Origin: a virus
Reading direction: 5' to 3' (one strand)
DNA length: 38,126 nucleotides
IMG/VR virus record: IMGVR_UViG_3300021138_000086
Span: 1-38,126 of that record
Within the stretch, counting starts at the first letter, position 1, and each line of letters begins with the position of its first letter. Below, one piece after another: positions 1-38,126 of this stretch. The translations under genes were made by a program, and so were the position numbers. Below the pieces are notes generated by a model, which saw only the letters and a list, made by a program, of their open reading frames with translations, made no database searches and had not been told where the DNA came from.

Positions 1-225
1 GTTTATTTCTTTTACTTCTTTATGTGATTCCATTAGTCTTGCGCTTAGCATATCTAGCTTTTCTTCATATACTTCGAGCATCTCAGTTACTGCCCACAAT
101 GCCGCACTTTCTAAGTTACTAGACTCTCGTTCAGCAAGTATCTCTACTACACTTTTAATACTGCTTATCTTATATCCTATTTCCTCAACGGCACAGCTTG
201 CTTCCCAATATCCGATAACACTCAT
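1..225 (-). CDS. Partial small helical protein, cut by the window edge
   Basis: The frame is open for 75 codons from an ATG at 225 to the window edge, so the C-terminus is missing. The start overlaps the stop of the upstream gene as ATGA, the junction style used throughout this operon, which is the main support that it is real. The visible part is rich in Glu, Ser and Lys with no Pro, and looks alpha-helical. It starts MSVIGYWEAS and contains ALWAVTEMLEVYEEKLDML. No family recognised and no function proposed. Confidence 0.6.
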   Translation of the reverse strand, partial: MSVIGYWEASCAVEEIGYKISSIKSVVEILAERESSNLESAALWAVTEMLEVYEEKLDMLSARLMESHKEVKEIN

Positions 226-638
226 TTTGCCACCTCATCACAGCGTTCAATCAAGGCGGCATAGCCACACACATCAACCAAGTTATCACGATGGCTAGGG
301 TCATTGGCAAAGCGTGCAACCTTAACTAGCATCATCATTGCGGCTACATCTTTAGCAGTAACATTAAAGTTACCATCGTCCATGTTGTTCATATAGGCAG
401 TCCACATAGCGGCTATTGTCTTAAGGTTCTTAGCGGGATGTCCATAAGTCTTTTCCCTATCGCCATATACAATGGTTTGCGCTTCTTCTAATACAGATAC
501 CTTAGGCTTCATAACCTTAGGTTTTTTATTTACTTCTACCTTTGGTTTATTTATTTCTTTGGTTAGCAACTCTCCTATTTCAACTACTTTTGCTTCTGTT
601 GCTTGTGTCGCATCAACTTCTACTTGTGTCCAACTCAT
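222..638 (-). CDS. DUF6378-like phage protein
   Basis: A 138-aa protein. Residues 1-50 are a low-complexity Lys/Val/Pro linker (KPKVEVNKKPKVMKPKV). The remainder matches what I know of the DUF6378 phage family: an EEA..IVYGDREKTYGHP segment, then a helix around AAMWTAYM, then DVAAMMMLVKVARFAN followed by HRDNLVDVCGYAAL. The biochemical role of the family is not established. An all-helical nucleotide-pyrophosphatase-like fold is sometimes suspected from the acidic residues, but that is inference. It overlaps both neighbours by 4 nt (ATGA), so it is translationally coupled to the VRR-NUC gene upstream. Confidence 0.75.
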   Translation of the reverse strand: MSWTQVEVDATQATEAKVVEIGELLTKEINKPKVEVNKKPKVMKPKVSVLEEAQTIVYGDREKTYGHPAKNLKTIAAMWTAYMNNMDDGNFNVTAKDVAAMMMLVKVARFANDPSHRDNLVDVCGYAALIERCDEVAK

Positions 639-4359: not shown

Positions 4360-5547
4360 TTAATCCTCCATATGAATTGATTGACCTACACTTGGTACAT
4401 CCTTACAACCACCGACAATGCACCACAACACAGGGCTAGACCATGTACCGCCCCAATCACCGCCTACATAACCATCGGTAAGCACAACGACACACTCGGG
4501 GACAATGTTGTTGTCTTTTAAGTATTTGGTTATGCAACTAGGTGATGTACCGCCACCGCCCTTAGGTTTAGTAGAAGCCATTAGCTTATCGCCATCGCCC
4601 TGACCATAGACCTCATGACCTGCAACCTCGCCATCCCAATACAATAGATCAACTAGTTCGGGGTTCACATTGTTCATGATGCCTACTACTTCAGATAGAA
4701 AGCGATTGATTGCATCACCAGTAATAGAACCTGATGTATCTACCGCAACCACTAACCTACCCATCGTTTCGCTAATAGTGCTAGGCATATAGATGTCATG
4801 CTGTAACCATCTACGATTAGGCTTAGCCCATGTCGAATCATCTTTACCTTTACATACTGACGATACGAATTCACGCAAGGCATCTTTCCAATTAACCTTA
4901 GCACTCATCAAGTCGGTAAAGCATCGGTCAATATCACCGCCTACCTTACCAGCTAGGATTGCACCTTGTCGTATGGCTTGGTCTATCTGCTTACCCAACT
5001 CTTGCTTTTCTTCCTCGGACATAGAGTCGGCATCTTCCCAACCATGCTGGTCGATACCTTCACCTGACCCCCCGCTACCTCCATCATCGTCGTCAAGTAA
5101 CGCAAAGACTTCTGCTGAATTAAGACCTCGATACTTCTCGTCATAGAGTCCACACTTGGGTAGTTTGACAAACCCATTCGACTTCTTGTCCTCATCTGCA
5201 ATCTCCAAGTTAATAACATAATCACACGCACGATTTGCTTTACTAGCATCTTGCTTCCATAAGTGTTTCCATGTAGCAATATGCCTATACATCTTGTGCT
5301 TGTTCTCATGTAGGATAACTGCACGCAACTCAGCATCGGTCAGCGTAGATATAAAGTCCCGACTATAAACAACATCACGCCCATTGGTATATGCTGTCGG
5401 ACACTTCATCGGGTTATCTTCAACCTTCACGCTACCCACCATAAGCACACCACTATACGCAACGAATTGCGGGGACTTCATCAAGTCAATATGGCATCTC
5501 TCGATGCGTTGTTCTTGTGTAAGGTTTTTTACTGTTGTTAGGCTCAT
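4360..5547 (-). CDS. DUF2201-type metallopeptidase-like / VWA domain protein
   Basis: A 395-aa protein with two domains. The N-terminal domain carries HENKH (residues 80-84), an HExxH zinc motif typical of DUF2201_N (putative metallopeptidase). After an acidic, Gly-rich linker (about 150-165), a C-terminal VWA-like domain carries the MIDAS motif DTSGS at 270-274, a GGGGTSP loop near 330-335 and TDG at 357-359. ATG at 5547 is preferred over the GTG two codons before it because it makes an ATGA overlap with the upstream gene and follows GAGAG. VWA proteins of this type work with MoxR AAA+ ATPases, and such an ATPase is encoded just upstream (5775-6842). Confidence 0.88.
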   Translation of the reverse strand: MSLTTVKNLTQEQRIERCHIDLMKSPQFVAYSGVLMVGSVKVEDNPMKCPTAYTNGRDVVYSRDFISTLTDAELRAVILHENKHKMYRHIATWKHLWKQDASKANRACDYVINLEIADEDKKSNGFVKLPKCGLYDEKYRGLNSAEVFALLDDDDGGSGGSGEGIDQHGWEDADSMSEEEKQELGKQIDQAIRQGAILAGKVGGDIDRCFTDLMSAKVNWKDALREFVSSVCKGKDDSTWAKPNRRWLQHDIYMPSTISETMGRLVVAVDTSGSITGDAINRFLSEVVGIMNNVNPELVDLLYWDGEVAGHEVYGQGDGDKLMASTKPKGGGGTSPSCITKYLKDNNIVPECVVVLTDGYVGGDWGGTWSSPVLWCIVGGCKDVPSVGQSIHMED

Positions 5548-5765
5548 AAACACTCTCTTTCTATTATGTCGTGGTATGTTGCATTTAATATATCGGCAAT
5601 CGGTTTATCTACTAGGGTAAGACCTTTTGGGTTATAAGACCTACATTCATTTGGGTTAAAGAAATATAGGTAACAATTACCCGCCATATTTGGGTCGTCG
5701 TCTATAAATCCTACATACCCATACTTCTTACCTTTGGTCATTACCCAATCACCTTCCTTAAACAT
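5544..5765 (-). CDS. Small SH3-like protein, paralogue of the 6845-7045 product
   Basis: A 73-aa protein beginning MFKEGDWVMTKGK and ending with DKPIADILNATY. The same frame (KGDWVLTNG near the start, KKPVADILTAV near the end) occurs in the product of 6845-7045, so the two are diverged paralogues lying on either side of the MoxR gene. The GDWV..KG start suggests a small beta-barrel of SH3/KOW type (inference). It overlaps the VWA gene as ATGA, so its translation is coupled to that gene. Confidence 0.7.
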   Translation of the reverse strand: MFKEGDWVMTKGKKYGYVGFIDDDPNMAGNCYLYFFNPNECRSYNPKGLTLVDKPIADILNATYHDIIERECL

Positions 5766-17141: not shown

Positions 17142-17326
17142 CCGAGTATGAATACCTAGTCCGAGAGTTAAATCTAATGATCGAGTCTAGAGCACAATCC
17201 GTTGCCGATGGCAGCTGCAAAGCGTACGATGAGTACAAACACACAACAGGGATTATCCGTGGTCTTGCCCTGGCTGTGGATTTTATTAAAGACCGTGAGC
17301 AAAAAACAAAGGATGAAGATGAGTGA
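17138..17326 (+). CDS. Small hypothetical protein, 62 aa
   Basis: Starts at GTG 17138, overlapping the portal stop (GTGA), and ends overlapping the GroES-like start by 8 nt. The product is helical and charged (YEYLVRELNLMIESRAQSV; GIIRGLALAVDFIKDREQK). The fully coupled arrangement portal, this gene, GroES-like supports translation. Its size and place between the portal and the cochaperonin recall small accessory proteins of the head module, but no specific function is supported. Confidence 0.65.
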   Translation: MTEYEYLVRELNLMIESRAQSVADGSCKAYDEYKHTTGIIRGLALAVDFIKDREQKTKDEDE

Positions 17327-17720
17327 CATCATTATCAGCGATGCCTTGGGGAATCTCTCAAAGCTACCTGAAAAACCTGAAGCAAAAGCAACACAACTTC
17401 CAAAAGCTGCTGGCTACCATATCTTGTGTATGGTTCCACAGGTTGAAGAAGAGTATGAAAGCGGTTTATTAAAGTCAGCGGTAACACAGCAACACGAAGA
17501 AGTCCTAACACCCGTGCTTTTTGTTATGGACATTGGACCTGATGCTTATGCCGACAAAGAGCGTTTTCCCAGCGGTCCGCTGTGCAAAGTTGGTGACTTC
17601 GTGTTGATTCGCCCTAGTTCTGGTTCACGCCTCAAGATTCATGGCCGTGAGTTCAGAATTATCAACGATGATTCCGTAGAAGCCGTAGTAGAAGATCCTC
17701 GTGGCATTACGAGAGCATAA
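17319..17720 (+). CDS. GroES-like co-chaperonin
   Basis: A 133-aa protein. ATG at 17319 is chosen (AAAGG 6 nt upstream); a longer frame overlaps the upstream gene extensively and lacks an RBS. The GroES fold is visible: strand GYHILCMVPQVEEEY, a mobile-loop region at about 48-60 (SGLLKSAVTQQHEE), strand VLFVMDIGPDAY, then CKVGDFVLIRPSSGSRLKI, and EFRIINDDSVEAVVED at the end. These align with the VKVGD.VLF...G..VKI.G.E..I....DI.AVIE signature of Cpn10. As with T4 gp31, it would cap host GroEL to fold the capsid protein, whose gene lies in the same operon. Confidence 0.85.
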   Translation: MSDIIISDALGNLSKLPEKPEAKATQLPKAAGYHILCMVPQVEEEYESGLLKSAVTQQHEEVLTPVLFVMDIGPDAYADKERFPSGPLCKVGDFVLIRPSSGSRLKIHGREFRIINDDSVEAVVEDPRGITRA

Positions 17721-29000: not shown

Positions 29001-29246
29001 ATGTCAGCAGATGGCGGGTTCTATTTAGGTACGGATTTAAAAAATAAAACTTTTTACGGTTTTAGGCTAATTAATGCAACGGGTCAATTAGATATTGATA
29101 CCATAAAAAATGGAGATGGTGTAGTATCTATACCTGATCCGACTTATATTACAGGCCCAAACGAGTATCAAGCTTGGATCTGGTCAACTGATACATATCA
29201 GTTCCAGTGGGGTGATGATGGACATTTACTAATGGTGATGGTATGA
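29001..29246 (+). CDS. Small tail-associated protein, 81 aa
   Basis: Compact, mixed strands and aromatic residues (NKTFYGFRLINATGQLDIDT; WIWSTDTYQFQWGDDGHLLM). It overlaps the large fibre gene as ATGA, so the two are made together. It could be a fibre chaperone or a tail-tip component; unknown. Confidence 0.6.
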   Translation: MSADGGFYLGTDLKNKTFYGFRLINATGQLDIDTIKNGDGVVSIPDPTYITGPNEYQAWIWSTDTYQFQWGDDGHLLMVMV

Positions 29247-32200
29247 CAACAATTCTTGACTTAGGCAAACTACGGTTCTATTGGGCCGGCGACTATGTAA
29301 TTACAACTCAATATGAACTTAATGACGTTGTTAAATATGGTGGTAACGTATACGTATACACTAATGTTGTAAAAACTATTGGTAACCTACCTACAGACAC
29401 TGCCTACTGGGCATTAATGGTAAAGGGCGTTAACTTCGTTGGTGTATGGGATCCTGCTGTTCAATACCACATTGGCGATGCTGTTGCTTATGGCGCTGTA
29501 GTTTACGTTTCTTTATCGGATAATATTAATAAAGAACCTGACTTATACCCTGCTATTTGGTCTACGTTTGTAACTGGTATTCAATATAATGGGGTTTATA
29601 GCAATACTACGGCCTATCAACCGGATGACGTTGTAACGTATGGCCCATCTGCCTATATTGCAATCCAAACAACAACCGGCCATGATCCAACAAATGCTAC
29701 TTATTGGTCCCCATTTGTTTCTGGTATTGCTGCTAGTGGTGTATATAACTCCGCTACTGCATATGTACCTAATAATATCGTAGCCTATGGCGCAAACCTA
29801 TATATTGCAACTGCTAATACTACAGGTAATTTACCTACTAATACTGCTTACTGGCAGCCGTTTATCTCCGCCTTTCAAAACCGTGGTGCATGGGTTACAT
29901 CAACTACATATTACGTAAACGACCTTGTTCAGTATGGCGCTAATACTTACGCTTGCCAAGTACAAAACGTTTCAGGTGTATTTGCTACTGACTTAGCCGC
30001 TGGTAAATGGTCTATCTTTGTATCAGGATTACGTCAACGTGGTGCTTGGACAACTGCTACTCAGTATCTACCATACGATATTGTTGTTTATGGCGGTAAT
30101 ACTTATTCTTGCGTAACACTAAATACATCTGGTGTATTTGCTACTGACTTAGCTGCTGGTAAGTGGCAGATCTTTAACGGTGGTATTCGTTGGAGAGGTA
30201 CTTGGGCTGCAGCTACACAATATTTAGTTAATGATGTAGTTTATAACTTAACATCTTCTTATATTTGCTTACAGGATAATACATCTAGCTCAAACTTTAA
30301 TACCGACTTGACTGCCGGTGAGTGGCAGATTTTTGCTGCTGGTAATAATGTATTCCCCGCAATTACTTCTGGCCAAAATGGATACTCATTATCAATCGCT
30401 AATGATGGCATTAACTTAGCTTGGCTTAATGCTACTAGTGGTGTAAATATTCTTTATGTTGCTAAAAATGGTAGCGATTCAAATCCAGGAAATAGCTTAG
30501 CCCTTCCAAAGCTAACTATTCAAGGCGCAATTGCGGCTGTTCCATCTGGTCAAAAGACTGCAATTTTTGTTAAATCTGGTACTTACCAAGAAGCATTATT
30601 GCCAATGGTTGTTCCTCCTAACTGCGCTATCGTAGGTGATGCAACTCGTACTACAATTGTTCAACCTGGCTCTGGCCTTGCTGCAGATGGTGTAACACCA
30701 AACAACCAAGCAACTATGTGGGCGTTATCGGATGGTTCTTTGCTAAATAAGTTATCGTTCCAAGGCATGACTGGCTGGGTTCCTGGAGCAACACCTTCAG
30801 ATATTACTACATCTACGCCAAAAGGTATCTACTGCGCATTAAACCCAGCGTCCCCAATTATTGTTAAATCACCTTATGTTATTGAGTGTGCTTGCTTCTC
30901 TTCTGGTGGTATTGGCGCATACGTTAATGGTAGCGTACACTCATCTGGTAATCGCTCAATTCTTTTCCATGAGTTCACAGGTATTCACGATAATGGTGTA
31001 GGTATTTGGGTTGATAACAATGGTAAATCTGAGTGCGTCGGCGTATTTACTTACTACGCTTATTTTGGATATGCAACTACTAATGGTGGTCAGTTACGTT
31101 CTATTAGCGGAAATAACTCATATGGTACATACGGATCAGTATCATCTGGATATAGCGCTGCTGAGACCGCAATTACTGGTTCTTTATATGGTACTTTAAT
31201 TACTTTTACCGGTAATTACACAGGTACTATTAATCCAGGAGATACGGTATCTAACGGTGCTGGTGTAACTGCAACTGTAACTAACGTACAGATTTCTTCT
31301 GTCTATGTAACTAACGTTACTGGTGGTACATTTACTGCTGGCCAAACTATTACTGCTACAAGCGGTGGTGTTGGTATAGTATCTACATATGGTGGGCAAC
31401 AAGGTTATGTACTTGTATTGAACAATTTGATAGCAGCACCTCAAGTCGGTCAGTCAGTTCAAGTCGCTGGAGATTCTTCTGCATATATTATTAACGCAAC
31501 CTCTGGCTCTTGGGTTAATAGCTCTAGTGTTATTTCTGTTGTATTAGCGCAACAAAAAGCTACGGCTTCAGCATCGGGTTCTACAGTTACGATTCGTTCT
31601 AACTTTAGTCTATGCCGTATTACTGCCCATGACTTTTTAAATATTGGTACTGGTGGTATTACAACTACAAACTACCCTAATACCCCAACACAAGCACCTA
31701 ATCCGGCTAACCAAGTTCTTCAAACATTGCCTGGTCGTGTTTACTATATTTCTGCTGACCAAGCAGGTAACTTCCAAGTTGGTTCATACTTTGCGGTTAA
31801 CCAAGCAACTGGTGCCGCAACACTGAATGCTAACTCGTTTAACCTGTCTGGTTTGACATCTTTACGTTTGGGTTCGATTGGCGCTCAGTTAGGCGCTCAG
31901 ATTAATGAGTTTAGTACTGACGGTACAATGGCTCAGAACTCTCCAGTCAAGGTTCCTACCCAATCTGCGGTTGTTACTTATGTTGGTACTCAAGTTAGTG
32001 CGGCTGTTCCAAGCCAAACTGGAAATAGTGGTAAGTATTTAACTACAAACGGCACAGTTACTTCTTGGGGTACTGTATCTGTTACACCACAATGGACAGT
32101 TACAACAGCGGCAACTACTGCAGTAGCAGGAACCAATTACCTATGCAATACTGCTTCTAGCCCATTTACAATTACTTTACCAGCATCGCCTAATAACAAT

Positions 32201-32368
32201 GACTCGGTAAAGATTGCAGATGCAAATAGCACTTTTGGGGTAAATCCTGTAACTGTAGGATATAATGGCGCAAGTATTCAAGGTTCTGGTCAAAACTTAA
32301 TCCTGAACGTTTCAGGCGCATCAGTCAATTTAACTTATAATTCTTCTTTTGGATGGAGGCTCGTTTAA
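29243..32368 (+). CDS. Tail spike/fibre with seven carbohydrate-binding-like repeats and a beta-helix
   Basis: A 1,041-aa protein. Residues about 12-370 contain seven repeats of 45-55 aa of the type GVYNSATAYVPNNIVAYGAN..Y..........YW. The G.W....Y...D.V.YG...Y pattern matches CBM5/12-like (ChiC-type) carbohydrate-binding modules. From about residue 405 (LYVAKNGSDSNPGNSLALPK) a parallel beta-helix domain follows, then a C-terminal region with Gly/Thr-rich inserts. It is likely the main receptor-binding or polysaccharide-processing spike. Confidence 0.85.
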   Translation: MTTILDLGKLRFYWAGDYVITTQYELNDVVKYGGNVYVYTNVVKTIGNLPTDTAYWALMVKGVNFVGVWDPAVQYHIGDAVAYGAVVYVSLSDNINKEPDLYPAIWSTFVTGIQYNGVYSNTTAYQPDDVVTYGPSAYIAIQTTTGHDPTNATYWSPFVSGIAASGVYNSATAYVPNNIVAYGANLYIATANTTGNLPTNTAYWQPFISAFQNRGAWVTSTTYYVNDLVQYGANTYACQVQNVSGVFATDLAAGKWSIFVSGLRQRGAWTTATQYLPYDIVVYGGNTYSCVTLNTSGVFATDLAAGKWQIFNGGIRWRGTWAAATQYLVNDVVYNLTSSYICLQDNTSSSNFNTDLTAGEWQIFAAGNNVFPAITSGQNGYSLSIANDGINLAWLNATSGVNILYVAKNGSDSNPGNSLALPKLTIQGAIAAVPSGQKTAIFVKSGTYQEALLPMVVPPNCAIVGDATRTTIVQPGSGLAADGVTPNNQATMWALSDGSLLNKLSFQGMTGWVPGATPSDITTSTPKGIYCALNPASPIIVKSPYVIECACFSSGGIGAYVNGSVHSSGNRSILFHEFTGIHDNGVGIWVDNNGKSECVGVFTYYAYFGYATTNGGQLRSISGNNSYGTYGSVSSGYSAAETAITGSLYGTLITFTGNYTGTINPGDTVSNGAGVTATVTNVQISSVYVTNVTGGTFTAGQTITATSGGVGIVSTYGGQQGYVLVLNNLIAAPQVGQSVQVAGDSSAYIINATSGSWVNSSSVISVVLAQQKATASASGSTVTIRSNFSLCRITAHDFLNIGTGGITTTNYPNTPTQAPNPANQVLQTLPGRVYYISADQAGNFQVGSYFAVNQATGAATLNANSFNLSGLTSLRLGSIGAQLGAQINEFSTDGTMAQNSPVKVPTQSAVVTYVGTQVSAAVPSQTGNSGKYLTTNGTVTSWGTVSVTPQWTVTTAATTAVAGTNYLCNTASSPFTITLPASPNNNDSVKIADANSTFGVNPVTVGYNGASIQGSGQNLILNVSGASVNLTYNSSFGWRLV

Positions 32369-32369
32369 T

Positions 32370-33734
32370 ATGCCACAACTTCTTACAACAGTTCTTAACG
32401 GTGGTGTCAACCCAGGTGTTTCGGGTACTGGAGCCAGATTTAGCTATGCACTATGTAGCTATAACCCATCTAACGGAAACGGTGGCTTTGCTTTTTACGA
32501 TCAAAACTTTGCGCAGCCAATAAACTTGAGTTACCCAAGTAACTATAATAGCTATGGCCCCTCTAACATAGTTTATTTAACTAGCGGAACATACCAAAAC
32601 TATTCTTCTCAGTTTAGCTGGGTATCAGATACTAGTAACCAAGCGTCTTCAACCAGTACGTCTAACTATATGAATGCAACTAATTCACAAGGCGAATTTG
32701 GAAATTCTTGTATTGATATTTATAGTGATGGTACTTTTGGTAGTGCTAGAAGGGCTACTAGTTCTAACTACAATAAATACTATTTAAATGCTTATGCAAT
32801 TAATAGTGACCACTCAAACAAAAGAATTGTATACCTTTTAAACGGCGGTAAAATTACTGCTGTAGATCGTTTATTCGGAAATTATACTGCTCCATTAGAT
32901 GGTACTTCTGCATATACCGTTTCAAGTTTAAATACAACAATGCAGGGTAGTGCGTCATATAACTACGCTCGTAAAGAGTTAACTATTCTAAGTTATGCTA
33001 GTACAGGTGGTAACTTTAACGTAATTACATTCCAAAACGTAGATTTTAACTTGTACCCTGACCCATCAGTTGCATTAACACAGTCTGGCGTAGTTAGAGT
33101 TAACTCAACCGTTGCATTGACTAGCAGTTGGGGTGTTAATAATAACGAGTCATATTACAACTTAAAACCAATTGTAACTGCTAACGGAACTGTATATGTT
33201 ACCGTAATGTTTACTAGTTCTAGCTTTGCTTTGTACTCATTTACTAGAAGTGGAACAAGTGCAATTACAGGTACTTATGTAACTGCTTTGTCAATTACAA
33301 CTTCTTATGGTTTTGACCAAGGTTTTTATTATGGCCAACGTCAAATAACATCTCGTGACGGATCAACTGTCTGCACATTTTGCCCATACTACTATTATGG
33401 TTCTGGTGTGGAGGCTTTCATGATTGATAAAAATAATAATACATACTCTACTTATTCAAATACAGATAGTAGTGCTGGTTATGGCGTTGTTCCTTATGGC
33501 AACAATGGTTGGGCATTTGGTTTTAATGGTAATGGTTATGCAGGTAACTATCCAGGAGATTATGTTTCTGCTGTATATACTAAAAACTCTGCTGGTGGAT
33601 TTACACAAACAGGTACAACCCTGTATTACCCATCATTCCCGGCCCCAAATACAACAAACTATCCAGGTCTTGCTATGACAACAGATTATATGTTATTAAC
33701 AGGTGGAACTTCTGGACCTAAATTAGCTGCTTAA
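32370..33734 (+). CDS. Probable tail-associated or receptor-binding protein, 454 aa
   Basis: ATG 32370 is chosen (TAATATG junction, GGAGG upstream). Rich in Ser, Tyr, Asn and Gly with regular short strands (YALCSYNPSNGNGGFAFYDQ; GSASYNYARKELTILSYAST), suggesting a beta-propeller or beta-sandwich fold. It lies between the large spike and further fibre genes. Function is inferred from place and composition. Confidence 0.65.
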   Translation: MPQLLTTVLNGGVNPGVSGTGARFSYALCSYNPSNGNGGFAFYDQNFAQPINLSYPSNYNSYGPSNIVYLTSGTYQNYSSQFSWVSDTSNQASSTSTSNYMNATNSQGEFGNSCIDIYSDGTFGSARRATSSNYNKYYLNAYAINSDHSNKRIVYLLNGGKITAVDRLFGNYTAPLDGTSAYTVSSLNTTMQGSASYNYARKELTILSYASTGGNFNVITFQNVDFNLYPDPSVALTQSGVVRVNSTVALTSSWGVNNNESYYNLKPIVTANGTVYVTVMFTSSSFALYSFTRSGTSAITGTYVTALSITTSYGFDQGFYYGQRQITSRDGSTVCTFCPYYYYGSGVEAFMIDKNNNTYSTYSNTDSSAGYGVVPYGNNGWAFGFNGNGYAGNYPGDYVSAVYTKNSAGGFTQTGTTLYYPSFPAPNTTNYPGLAMTTDYMLLTGGTSGPKLAA

Positions 33735-33745
33735 AAGGATTAAAA

Positions 33746-34006
33746 ATGAAAATTTATTTTACTACTCCAACGGATTGTTTTATTGCGGATTTTACGAACC
33801 AATCTGACGAACCAGAGCATCTTGCTTCTTTTGATTTGAAAGAAGGTCAATCTACTTTTGCTCCTAGATATTCACTAGTTAACGATGAATTAGTTGATAA
33901 CTATGTAGGAAAAAAAGATGAAGAAGTTGCTGCTGCTATTTTAAAAGCAGAAAACGATGCTGCTGCTGCTTTGGTCGCTGCCGCTGCCGCTGCCGATAAA
34001 AAATGA
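33746..34006 (+). CDS. Small tail-region protein with Ala-rich C-terminus, 86 aa
   Basis: The N-terminal half is compact and acidic (KIYFTTPTDCFIADFTNQSD); the last 25 residues are a helical, Ala-rich tail (AAAALVAAAAAADKK). Good AAAGGA RBS. Its stop overlaps the start of the heme oxygenase gene (ATGA), so HO translation is coupled to this gene. Function unknown. Confidence 0.65.
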   Translation: MKIYFTTPTDCFIADFTNQSDEPEHLASFDLKEGQSTFAPRYSLVNDELVDNYVGKKDEEVAAAILKAENDAAAALVAAAAAADKK

Positions 34007-34536
34007 GCCTTAAAGACCTGATTAAAGATAACCACGATAAGGCGGAAAACCACCGTTTTGTTAAGGTTCTTTTATCAGGTGAAATTCCAGTACCGGTCTA
34101 TGCAGACCTTTTATATAACCAGTTGTTCTGTTATACAAAATTAGAAGAGCGTGCTTGGAAAGAAGGTTTATTAGAAGGTATTGAAAGTATTTGCCGTGGC
34201 CCTAAGATTGAGATGGACTATATTGAGTTAGTAACTCCGGCTAAGGTATACCAATCTACTGCAGACTACGCAAAGTACATAGAAGACATACCTGCAGATA
34301 AGATTATGGGGCATATATACGCTAAGCATTTTGGCGATTTATACGGTGGCCAGATGATTAAAAAGGTTGTACCTGGCTCTGGATTAATGTACCAATTTGA
34401 AAACCGCAAAGAGTTAATCGACAAAGTTCGTGAGCGTCTATCTGATGATCTAGGTGATGAGGCTAATATAGCTATAGAATTCAATCTAAGACTATTTGAT
34501 GAGATTGCCGATGCCCACGATATTCCAGCAGCTTGA
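34003..34536 (+). CDS. ho: Heme oxygenase
   Basis: A 177-aa all-helical protein of the canonical HO family. The proximal heme ligand is His11 in LIKDNHDKAENHRF, matching the E/NxHxxAEN helix of HO-1 type enzymes. The distal helix HIYAKHFGDLYGGQMI (104-119) carries the GDLxGGQ signature. HO opens heme to biliverdin IXalpha, CO and iron using reduced ferredoxin or similar donors, the substrate for the gene that follows. At 177 aa it is shorter than the usual 200-240, as if trimmed at the C-terminus. It lies within the tail genes, so it is expressed late. Confidence 0.93.
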   Translation: MSLKDLIKDNHDKAENHRFVKVLLSGEIPVPVYADLLYNQLFCYTKLEERAWKEGLLEGIESICRGPKIEMDYIELVTPAKVYQSTADYAKYIEDIPADKIMGHIYAKHFGDLYGGQMIKKVVPGSGLMYQFENRKELIDKVRERLSDDLGDEANIAIEFNLRLFDEIADAHDIPAA

Positions 34537-35158
34537 AAACTTCGCTGACTACCTCCAAAAGCGGTTTAAGTACTATGAGGAAGTAGACGAAGGACATAAA
34601 TTTACTTGGCCTAATTATGTCTATAAAGGTCATAATTTTCGTAGGGCGCATTTGGACATAGTAGACGCTAGGGAAACCAAAAAGCTCTATATGCTCCATT
34701 TGTGCGTATTCCCACATTTAGACTGCCCTGCCCCCATATACGGCTTTGATATTATTGCTGGAGCTAATAAGGTTACTGGTGCTTTCCATGACTTTAGCCC
34801 AATAGGTGAACACCCATTAAACGACTGGTTTAAAGATAAAGTAGCTGGCTACCAGTGGAGTAGAGAGCGAGAACTTCCAGAATGGGCACGTAATATATTT
34901 AGCCCTAGTATGGTAGCTGCCGGAAACATCAACACAGAAGAAGAGTTAGCTAAAGTACTTAGCCTAGCCACAGCAAATCTTAACCAGTATCTTGACTATA
35001 TGGGTATGGGTGAGAAAGGCGACTATAAGGACAAGCAAAATTATTACTGCCAGAACCAAAAGAAAAACCCACATACCCCTAGAGTAATGGCGTCTTTAGG
35101 GTTAGACCCAGATGAAGTTTCATTGTTTATTAACAAATGCTTATTCCCTGAGGTGTAA
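34511..35158 (+). CDS. pcyX: Ferredoxin-dependent bilin reductase, PcyX-like
   Basis: A 215-aa reductase overlapping the HO gene by 26 nt (ATG 34499 would add 4 residues). The family core is visible: FRRAHLDIVD (Asp49), LYMLHLCVFPHLD (His63), IYGFDIIAGANKVTGAFHDF (Asp80). In PcyA these three positions are Glu, His and Asp; PcyX keeps the His-Asp pair and has Asp for Glu, exactly as here. PcyX reduces biliverdin with four electrons from ferredoxin to phycoerythrobilin, so HO plus this enzyme would make phycoerythrobilin from heme. The subfamily call rests on these residues and length; family membership is firm. Confidence 0.9.
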   Translation: MPTIFQQLENFADYLQKRFKYYEEVDEGHKFTWPNYVYKGHNFRRAHLDIVDARETKKLYMLHLCVFPHLDCPAPIYGFDIIAGANKVTGAFHDFSPIGEHPLNDWFKDKVAGYQWSRERELPEWARNIFSPSMVAAGNINTEEELAKVLSLATANLNQYLDYMGMGEKGDYKDKQNYYCQNQKKNPHTPRVMASLGLDPDEVSLFINKCLFPEV

Positions 35159-35159
35159 A

Positions 35160-35207
35160 ATGACGTTCCTGCTAGAGCTTCTATCTAATTACGGATATAC
35201 CAGATGA
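35160..35207 (+). CDS. 15-aa linking ORF
   Basis: ATG 35160, 1 nt after the reductase stop, to TGA 35205-35207, which overlaps the ATG of the next gene as ATGA. The product is MTFLLELLSNYGYTR. It has a weak RBS (GAGG) at usable spacing and may only serve to couple the next gene. Confidence 0.3.
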   Translation: MTFLLELLSNYGYTR

Positions 35208-36235
35208 CCTTTGGGTTTTCACCATTTGCACAGGCTCCCTGGTGTACTATTCCGGGGGGTAGTATCTATTCGATTTCTGTATCTGAAAGCTTTACAACAA
35301 CCGATTCTTTTTCTAGTTTAGCTAAATTTAACGTATTAAATGCTGAGTCTTTTGCATTATCTGATAGAGATGTATCCCAATTTAACTTCCGTGAAACTGT
35401 AGCAGAAAGCAGTTCCCTTGCTGACGCCTACGCTGTTAAATTTGGTGCAAGTGGTGCAGTATATGAAATGTTCACTATTAGTGATAGGTTAGCGTCTTCT
35501 TTTGCTTATATTGTATTGGCAGCAGAAAACGTAACCCTAACAGATACAGAACGAAGTAATAATACTTATTACGTATTTACAAGTGAAGCAGCCACAATTA
35601 ATACCCTAGTTTCAGCAAAAGCTGCCTTTGCTGGATTATCTGCTAATACTCTTTCTTTAAGTGATAGAGAACAATCCCAATTTAATTTCCGTGAAACCGT
35701 AGCTGAAAATAGCTCTTTTTCCGATGTCGAAGCCGGTAAATTAAACGCCCGGGTAACTGTACCAGAGTCAGTAATTTTAGTTGAAGCCCTTATTGCCCGA
35801 GCTAAATTTGTGGTTTCCGTACCAGAAACAGCTAGGTTTACTGATGTAGAAAACGTATTCCAAAGCTTTCCAGTACGAGTCCAAGAATTAGCTACCTTTA
35901 CAGATGCCGTAAATGGTCGTAGATTTGCATTTGTAACAGCTGCTGAAAACTTTAACTTAGTCGATACCGATACCGCAAAAGCCAATTTTGTAGGTTTAAC
36001 CCAAGAAATAGTATCGGCTATAGACTCCCCTTTTGCTCGTGGATGGGTTAAAATAAACGATAATCAGGATACAACTTGGAACGGTGTCAATAATAACCAG
36101 GTCCAAATGTGGCAGGCAGTAGGTAATAACCAGACATCTAACTGGACAGGAATAAATGATGCACAAAACCCTGGATGGGATAGCGTAGGCGATAACCAAA
36201 ATCCGGGCTGGATAGACATAGACGATAATCAGTAA
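35204..36235 (+). CDS. Repetitive tail protein with two kinds of repeat
   Basis: A 343-aa protein. About 13 units of 19-21 aa with an E..x.sD..... pattern (AESFALSDRDVSQFNF; AENVTLTDTERSNNTYY) form a regular beta structure; two units about 100 aa apart are almost identical at DNA level. The last 60 residues are six short units ending in NxQ (VKINDNQDTTWNGVNNNQ), with one Trp each. The repeats suggest an elongated fibre or adhesin element. Confidence 0.75.
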   Translation: MTFGFSPFAQAPWCTIPGGSIYSISVSESFTTTDSFSSLAKFNVLNAESFALSDRDVSQFNFRETVAESSSLADAYAVKFGASGAVYEMFTISDRLASSFAYIVLAAENVTLTDTERSNNTYYVFTSEAATINTLVSAKAAFAGLSANTLSLSDREQSQFNFRETVAENSSFSDVEAGKLNARVTVPESVILVEALIARAKFVVSVPETARFTDVENVFQSFPVRVQELATFTDAVNGRRFAFVTAAENFNLVDTDTAKANFVGLTQEIVSAIDSPFARGWVKINDNQDTTWNGVNNNQVQMWQAVGNNQTSNWTGINDAQNPGWDSVGDNQNPGWIDIDDNQ

Positions 36236-36244
36236 GGAATATAA

Positions 36245-38126
36245 ATGGCCTCAACATACTCACCGAATTTACGTATCGAACTAATCGGTACAGGCGACCA
36301 AGCTGGTACTTGGGGAAATACAACCAACGGTACTGACCAGTACGTACTTGAGAATGCCGTCAGTGGGTACCAAGCTATCCCTATTAATTCATCAAATCAA
36401 GCGCTAACCTATGTTTATGGTTCTACAACCTCAGCAGCGTCTAATCAGTCAGTCTTTGCATTTTTACAATTAACTACTGGTACGGTAACTACGGCGTTTA
36501 ACCTATATGCACCGCCTACACCAAAATCCTATGTTGTCTATAACAATACCACATATACTGCGACTATCTATAATAGTACAGCTATCGGTAATACCATCCC
36601 TGCAGGTGCGGGTGTAGTTATTGCTGCTGGTGCGACAATTACTGTTTGGTCTGATGGTCAAAATTTCCGTGCGGCTAATACTGCGGCTGGTAACTTCCTT
36701 GTAGAGGGTAATTTAACTGTACTTGGTAACGACACAGAAATTGGTAATTTTTCAGCTGCTAACGTTTTTGCTGCCTTTGAACAGGCTACGTTTACAGGTA
36801 GTATTTCTGGTAATACTTTAACCGTACCAACAGGCGGGGTTTCTGTAGGATCTGTTTTTGTTGGTCAAATTATTTCCGGTACAGGTATTGCCGCTGCCAC
36901 ATCCACTAACTTAACTAATCCCCTATCTACTACAAACGGCAGCGCTACTGTAACAGTAACCCAGGCGGGTCATGGGTTTTCAAATGGTACTCCTGTAACT
37001 ATTGCTGGAGCTTCTGCAACGGGTGGCATTCCAAGTACAAGCTTAAACGGTACATATTCAATTACCTATATTAATGCTAATAGTTATTCATTTACTGCTG
37101 GTGCAGCAGCTTCTTCGACAGTATCCGGCGATGGCGGTGCTGTTACAGTTACTACTCCTTCTACCCAAATTACAGCATTAGGTTCTGGCACAGGTGGCGC
37201 AGGTACATACCTTGTTAATATTTCACAGACTGTAGGTTCTACAACTATTACTGGTTCTCCTGCGGCTATTGCTACAACCCCTGCTACTACTGATAACTCA
37301 AATAACGTAGCTACAACAGCATTTGTTAAGAACGCATTATCTGCAAGCGGTAGCTTTGTATACCCTAACGTTGGTATTCCTAATTCAACAGGTGCTGCAT
37401 GGGGTACATCTTATAATTCTTCAAATCCAATTCCAGTAAGTTTTGGGGGTACAGGCTTAGCGACTTTAACTTCGGGAGCTGTATTAGTTGGTAATGGTAC
37501 AAGTGTACCAACAGCTATTTCTCCAAGCTTTGCAAATAACGTACTAGCTTCTAATGGTTCTGTATGGTCTTCAACCCCGTTTAGTACACTACTAGGTACA
37601 AGCGCAGTAACTTCTTTTAATGGTCGTACTGGACCAGTAACTCCTTCTTCAACAGACTATAGTTCTTACTACTATCCGCTTAGCTCAAACCCGTCAAACT
37701 ATGTAACTTCATCTGCGCTTTCTGGGTATGCTCAATTAAGTGGCACAAATAACTTTACTGGAGCAAATACCTATAGTTCTACAGCTAGCATAACCGCAAC
37801 AGGAACCAGCGCAGGTAACCTGCGTATTGGTGTAACTTACAGCACTTATAGTTCTGGACTTTCAGCTACATCATTGCAACTTGCTGGTAATGGTGTTGGG
37901 GTTTTATTTGACCCAACTACTAATACCGTGGGTTTTCTAAATGGTTTTGGAGGTGGTAGTGGTACATATTTATCAATAACTCCTACAAGCGGCACTGTAG
38001 GTTTAGCTAATAATACTCTATATACAACCGCTGTTGATGCTATTAAAGGTGGTAGTTCTACTGCGTGGATTGCTACGTCAGACATTCGCCTTAAAAATAA
38101 TATCCAAGACTATACAAAAGGTCTTG
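36245..38126 (+). CDS. Tail fibre with Peptidase_S74 chaperone domain, partial at the right edge
   Basis: The frame is open from ATG 36245 (TAAGGA RBS) to the window edge, 627 codons. The N-terminus YSPNLRIELIGTGDQAGTWG is typical of phage fibre anchors. Residues 182-340 hold a nested pair of beta domains with an FCCH-like unit inside. The visible end, SDIRLKNNIQDYTKGL, is the start of the Peptidase_S74 intramolecular chaperone, which trims itself after trimerisation. The stop is beyond the window. Confidence 0.9.
   Translation, partial: MASTYSPNLRIELIGTGDQAGTWGNTTNGTDQYVLENAVSGYQAIPINSSNQALTYVYGSTTSAASNQSVFAFLQLTTGTVTTAFNLYAPPTPKSYVVYNNTTYTATIYNSTAIGNTIPAGAGVVIAAGATITVWSDGQNFRAANTAAGNFLVEGNLTVLGNDTEIGNFSAANVFAAFEQATFTGSISGNTLTVPTGGVSVGSVFVGQIISGTGIAAATSTNLTNPLSTTNGSATVTVTQAGHGFSNGTPVTIAGASATGGIPSTSLNGTYSITYINANSYSFTAGAAASSTVSGDGGAVTVTTPSTQITALGSGTGGAGTYLVNISQTVGSTTITGSPAAIATTPATTDNSNNVATTAFVKNALSASGSFVYPNVGIPNSTGAAWGTSYNSSNPIPVSFGGTGLATLTSGAVLVGNGTSVPTAISPSFANNVLASNGSVWSSTPFSTLLGTSAVTSFNGRTGPVTPSSTDYSSYYYPLSSNPSNYVTSSALSGYAQLSGTNNFTGANTYSSTASITATGTSAGNLRIGVTYSTYSSGLSATSLQLAGNGVGVLFDPTTNTVGFLNGFGGGSGTYLSITPTSGTVGLANNTLYTTAVDAIKGGSSTAWIATSDIRLKNNIQDYTKGL

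Follow-up and report, generated by a model that had tools for sequence, protein, structure and literature searches.

This locus raises the question of why a phage would carry a pathway that turns heme into a phycobilin. The retention of such a pathway by phages that probably infect non-photosynthetic bacteria is an acknowledged puzzle (PMC11480375). The window considered here, that is, the whole 38,126-nt stretch of viral DNA that was analyzed (IMG/VR record IMGVR_UViG_3300021138_000086), holds one such gene pair. With a probability of roughly 0.75, the pair is a functional hemO–pcyX auxiliary metabolic cassette of a tailed, probably podophage-like virus, which would convert heme to biliverdin and then to the pink pigment phycoerythrobilin (PEB) late in infection.

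The reading frames of hemO and pcyX both lie on the + strand, at 34003-34536 and 34511-35158, and they sit among the following features.

29243-32368, + strand: tail-fiber protein of 1041 aa with a carbohydrate-binding module, CBM_5_12 (phrog_9851, E 2.3e-201; PF02839).
32349-33734, + strand: protein of 461 aa between the tail-fiber gene and the cassette; no match in Pfam or PHROG searches.
33746-34006, + strand: protein of 86 aa with an Ala-rich C-terminus, directly 5' of the heme oxygenase (HO) gene; no match in Pfam or PHROG.
34003-34006, + strand: ATGA stop/start overlap of the 86-aa gene and the HO gene, read from the sequence.
34003-34536, + strand: heme oxygenase (HemO), 177 aa, with H11 and with D112 in GDLYGGQ (PF01126, invariant residues, AlphaFold, dN/dS).
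34511-34536, + strand: 26-nt overlap of the HO and reductase genes, read from the sequence.
34511-35158, + strand: PcyX-type ferredoxin-dependent bilin reductase (FDBR), 215 aa, with D49, H63, and D80 (PF05996, PDB 5owg, tree, AlphaFold).
35160-35207, + strand: micro-ORF of 15 codons directly 3' of the reductase, overlapping the gene that follows by ATGA, read from the sequence.
35204-36235, + strand: repetitive protein of 343 aa, 3' of the cassette (weak PHROG matches only; 78% identity in contig L003).
36245-38126, + strand: S74-autochaperone tail fiber, truncated by the window end at 38126 (contig L001 7735-9900, PF13884, tail-fiber PHROGs).

The first-pass annotation had described two pigment-enzyme genes back to back with a 26-nt overlap, inside a tail-fiber operon, with HO coupled by ATGA to a tail gene. 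The overlap is exact, and the cassette does lie in a tail-fiber region, with the 1041-aa fiber on its 5' side and the S74 fiber, complete at 721 aa in L001, a contig that overlaps the window at 100% identity, on its 3' side. The ATGA coupling is also real, but the status of its 86-aa partner as a tail gene is unproven. Because neither the 86-aa nor the 461-aa gene has a family match, the label “tail operon” fits the neighborhood but is unproven for the individual genes. In L003, a 2OG-Fe(II) oxygenase takes the place of the 86-aa gene. The reductase length is counted from the ATG common to its relatives, and alternative in-frame starts lie upstream (TTG at 34496, ATG at 34499).

The micro-ORF encodes the peptide MTFLLELLSNYGYTR and is also in frame in L003 (from 6650) and L004 (from 4325), the window and L004 differing by six synonymous and two non-synonymous codons. 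A similar peptide forms the C-terminus of the reductase itself, as a fusion, in L005 and L006.

What the two genes encode is the next part of the question. Both products score above the curated cut-offs of their Pfam families, with 49.6 bits against 23 for HO (PF01126, Heme_oxygenase, E 5.5e-13) and 70 bits against 31 for the reductase (PF05996, Fe_bilin_red, E 3.1e-19), and the PHROG matches of the pair are 17328 and 7278. The HO-1 type motifs pointed out earlier hold up across 20 phage HOs, none of which departs from the proximal His (H11) or from the distal Asp112 of GDLYGGQ. The AlphaFold model (pLDDT 95) has the all-helical HO fold and matches solved HOs from Synechocystis, Corynebacterium, and mammals with Foldseek TM values of 0.77-0.85; the window protein is shorter than the cellular HOs. 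Sequence and model together support an HO-1-type heme oxygenase, predicted to convert heme to biliverdin IX-alpha.

The second gene had been called PcyX-like on the basis of its bilin reductase core, and this call is borne out. Its best sequence match in the PDB is 5owg, PcyX_EBK42635 (E 1e-62; 53.5% identity over 185 aligned residues), and the same entry is the top fold match of its AlphaFold model (pLDDT 93.8). The fold also matches PcyA, PebA, PebB, and PebS. In a tree of 82 FDBR sequences (built without PebS; rooting on PebS gave a long-branch artifact), the window protein falls inside the family and with PcyX, and a 97/97 branch parts the phage reductases, including the window and 5owg, from a PcyA side made up of cyanobacterial, cyanophage, and alphaproteobacterial sequences, with ten PcyAs. 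His63 and Asp80, which correspond to PcyA His88 and Asp105, are invariant in all 82. The PcyA catalytic triad of Glu76, His88, and Asp105 is incomplete in the window, where His and Asp are present and Glu76 aligns with Asp49. This position is Asp in 70 of the sequences and Glu in 12, the latter being the ten PcyAs and the second, tandem reductase of two large phages. A monophyletic clade of Asp-type sequences alone was considered as well; the tree did not recover it, nor was it rejected (AU p 0.456).

The residue probably matters for the product. Asp55 has been named as PcyX-specific, and the freshwater phage CB_2, whose enzyme lacks it, is suggested to make phycocyanobilin (PCB) for that reason (PMC11480375). 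The window's Asp49 is equated with Asp55 because the Asp aligned with it is, by counting, residue 55 of the protein of Pelagibacter phage Mosig. The evidence supports a PcyX-type member of the FDBR family; the window reductase falls in a PcyX clade that is divergent yet bears the diagnostic Asp, an addition to the known set. PcyX-type tree placement and Asp49 together make PEB the expected product.

In the proposed course of events, HemO would open host heme to give biliverdin IX-alpha, Fe2+, and CO. PcyX would then reduce the biliverdin with four electrons, presumably drawn from host ferredoxin, and the product would most likely be PEB rather than PCB. The genes are probably expressed late because the cassette shares its direction with the tail-fiber genes. 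The benefit could be heme breakdown (to release iron or keep heme in check), with the biliverdin cleared by PcyX, or the provision of a bilin for a biliprotein of the host; the two are about as likely as each other, and both had already been proposed in the literature before the first-pass annotation named them.

Both genes also evolve under constraint. Against L003 and L004, dN/dS is 0.05-0.10 for each, with HO at about 0.09, a rough value since the synonymous sites are near saturation. With intact catalytic residues, confident folds, and strong purifying selection, both enzymes are apparently functional. A search of IMG/VR found at least 284 related reductase loci, a lower bound set by the search patterns, of which 80 were kept for analysis. 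HO is detectable in 69 of the 80, with overlapping genes in 66 of the 69. The distances among the HOs and among the reductases correlate (r 0.68, against a null maximum of 0.14), so the two mostly travel together, with exceptions. For example, the window reductase is 94-95% identical to those of L003 and L004, compared with 75-76% for HO, and the asymmetry is stronger between L037 and L057 (95% for the reductase, 41% for HO). This suggests that, in close relatives, HO has been swapped by recombination close to the gene junction.

The kind of phage that carries the cassette can be judged from the rest of the genome. The window is a linear record, and a contig overlapping it at 100% identity adds about 25 kb, which points to a genome of about 63 kb or more. 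Besides more structural genes, the added part has genes for a DUF927 primase-like protein, a helicase, an exonuclease, and a sigma-like protein. HTVC027P, 023Pt_psg01, DSL-LC04, and the Planktothrix phage Pag-Yong1 each have matches to between 14 and 19 of the 81 predicted proteins, mainly in a TerL–portal–GroES–capsid–adaptor block whose order is that of HTVC027P. TerL is 46-58% and the capsid 60-71% identical to those of the HTVC023P-type pelagiphages, DSL-LC04, and Pag-Yong1. Among the replication genes, the helicase is 27% identical to that of HTVC027P, and the PolA and primase of HTVC027P have no match among the predicted proteins of the two contigs, which may be less than the whole genome. 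The carrier is probably a tailed, podophage-like virus.

Some of the genes in this backbone deserve mention in their own right. The GroES-like co-chaperonin (17202-17720, + strand) has an N-terminal extension and lies in the head block, as it does in HTVC027P, DSL-LC04, and Pag-Yong1. The proteins at 4360-5553 and 222-638 (both - strand) carry the PHROG labels “HNH endonuclease” and “phosphofructokinase,” and these names look wrong, as Pfam gives DUF2201 metallopeptidase/VWA-like and DUF6378.

In this phage group, the cassette keeps its place. Its slot among the tail genes is unchanged in L128 (collar gene 91% identical) and L130 (capsid 63% identical), a finding that covers all examined contigs of the group that reach the slot; the cassette is thus at one locus in three lineages with capsid identity down to 63%. 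TerL was found in one of 30 other cassette-bearing contigs, many of them fragments possibly too short to include it. In L003-L006, genes for 2OG-Fe(II) oxygenases lie beside the cassette or interrupt it, and oxygenase genes of this type are also found in the tail regions of HTVC027P, 023Pt_psg01, and DSL-LC04. This pattern suggests that the tail region takes up cargo genes and that hemO–pcyX has been kept there long-term.

How new is such a cassette? In kind it is not, since hemO–pcyX is known from many aquatic phages, and the cassette itself, its biochemistry, and freshwater examples have been published; the marine PcyX makes PEB, and a freshwater phage HemO is active (PMC11480375). The marine cassette with PcyX_EBK42635, credited to Ledermann et al. 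2018 in PMC13197396 and discussed in PMC11480375, shares with the window the HemO and PcyX gene pair and the PcyX-type Asp, but the window differs in its separate PcyX clade, its phage type, and its probably freshwater origin. Pelagibacter phage Mosig EXVC030M (MT647606), the sole deposited phage genome with a close PcyX next to HO, likewise has adjacent, overlapping genes for HO and a PcyX-type reductase (34% and 52% identical to those of the window). Unlike the window, it is a 141-kb myovirus whose cassette lies beside neck genes, behind a run of 2OG-Fe(II) oxygenases. The freshwater phage CB_2 (valaS–hemO–pcyA/X) also pairs hemO with a bilin reductase, but it has valaS, lacks the PcyX Asp, and makes PCB (PMC11480375). 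The window and the scanned proteins beyond it showed no AlaS-like gene, and the cassette is bordered by the 86-aa gene, the micro-ORF, and genes of the tail; this is not the three-gene valaS cassette. The HTVC023P-type pelagiphages, DSL-LC04, and Pag-Yong1, which share the TerL–portal–GroES–capsid–adaptor block, have no match to hemO or pcyX in their genomes. What is new is a podophage-like backbone of ~63 kb together with what appears, from gene order and divergence, to be long-term retention of the cassette between tail-fiber genes.

The functional PEB cassette is supported by the protein families and motifs, the 5owg match, the tree, Asp49, dN/dS, the co-variation of the two genes, the slot, and the published activities of marine PcyX and a freshwater phage HemO. 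Counting against it, the PcyX known to form PEB is only 53.5% identical, the related CB_2 cassette makes PCB, and no ferredoxin, acceptor protein, or lyase was found in the sequence examined.

The alternatives mostly keep the enzymes and change the pay-off. In the one that survives best, the gain would be iron or heme control, PcyX merely clearing biliverdin and the bilin having no receptor; the Fe2+ freed from host heme would go to phage-directed Fe(II) enzymes or to metabolism. This is a credible alternative, though it falls short of an even chance. In related loci, the gene most often lying upstream is one for a 2OG-Fe(II) oxygenase, and such genes flank or split the cassette in close kin. 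2OG oxygenases are, however, common in aquatic phages generally, and none lies beside the cassette in the window itself. The non-photosynthetic host of Mosig would fit an iron role, as would the absence of a bilin acceptor from the sequence examined: no Cys-cluster or CxRD motif, as a sign of a ferredoxin or a bilin acceptor, was found among the 81 predicted proteins, nor was a lyase found. An iron role has also been discussed before (PMC11480375). On the other hand, iron as the sole goal would seem to leave the reductase without a purpose. The idea of iron carried in the tail was rejected, as the tail proteins have no HxH motif.

Another possibility, only slightly less likely, has a freshwater cyanobacterium as the host, whose phycobilisomes would be fed with PEB in the course of infection, a role proposed for the PebS of cyanophages. 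The capsid is nearest that of the Planktothrix phage Pag-Yong1 (70.5% identical), with which 19 proteins are shared, and PcyX can feed PEB into the phycobilisomes of Synechococcus 7942 (PMC13197396). However, TerL is closer to those of DSL-LC04, with its predicted gammaproteobacterial host (PMC10611076), and the pelagiphages, and Pelagibacter is the host of the only cultured phage with PcyX. Also, the earlier remark that no other photosynthesis gene is visible extends beyond the window, as neither psbA nor any other was found in the window or among the scanned proteins of the 25-kb extension. Comparisons of TerL, of the capsid, and of whole contigs were tried as a guide to the host and set aside because the signals contradict one another. 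The window has no tRNA gene and no Rfam match. Three phage records (OL906435, PP438419, and OQ594354) have the same length of 65,014 bp and equal match scores and may be one phage, with Planktothrix, Planktothricoides, and Synechococcus as their listed hosts.

That the reductase is in effect a PcyA, making PCB for a host phytochrome, is improbable: CB_2 offers a precedent (PMC11480375), but the window has the very Asp whose absence was offered as the reason for the PCB of CB_2, and the tree puts it with 5owg and the other phage reductases instead of PcyA. Least probable by far is a newly acquired or decaying, non-functional pair, for which one could cite the different flanking cargo of its kin (the 86-aa gene or 2OG oxygenases), since dN/dS is low for both genes, the active sites are intact, and three lineages keep the cassette at one locus.

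The functional PEB cassette remains the preferred reading, and its setting gives it some significance. Samples 3300000177 and 3300020718 are, we assume, from Trout Bog Lake, and the habitat of the window is probably fresh water. PMC11480375 reported PcyX from marine viruses alone up to then, and the contigs of that study clustered with myovirus-type pelagiphages. If the window is indeed from fresh water, it would extend PcyX proper to that habitat. A more speculative and rather doubtful proposal is that a non-photosynthetic freshwater host cell, or the virion, makes use of the PEB or of the iron freed en route; if true, and given the stable tail-fiber slot, the phycobilin pathway would have a role outside light harvesting. 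The group offers a compact genome with the pair at one site across divergent lineages and is therefore well suited to expression, to telling PEB from PCB as the product, and to identifying the host. The first-pass annotation overstated the rarity of such contigs, as some of the related loci lie on contigs of 115-229 kb, Mosig is an isolate with the pair, and the cassette and its biochemistry were already in print.

The related loci show several other arrangements. Tandem reductases follow HO in L041 (5869-7250, on a 193 kb contig) and L047 (5965-7346, on a 229 kb contig), the first with Asp (PcyX-like) and the second with Glu (PcyA-like), and a beta-ketoacyl synthase gene lies upstream. Another gene is inserted between HO and the reductase in L005 (5368-5997), L006 (4639-5268), and L079 (5342-5962), and in L005 and L079 it is a 2OG-Fe(II) oxygenase. 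PcyX-type cassettes are also present in L087, L088, L089, and L090, from MAGs named Halobacteroidaceae, Arcticimaribacter, Neomarinimicrobiota, and Rickettsiales; a cellular origin was rejected in view of phage-type neighbors or an adjacent phage-type HO, and these contigs are probably misbinned phage DNA. Lastly, in L021, L024, L038, L039, L050-L052, and L077, a gene of 394-409 aa overlaps the 5' end of the reductase by 4 nt, with no HO detected nearby; in L021 and L038 it encodes a class I/II aminotransferase, probably AlaS.
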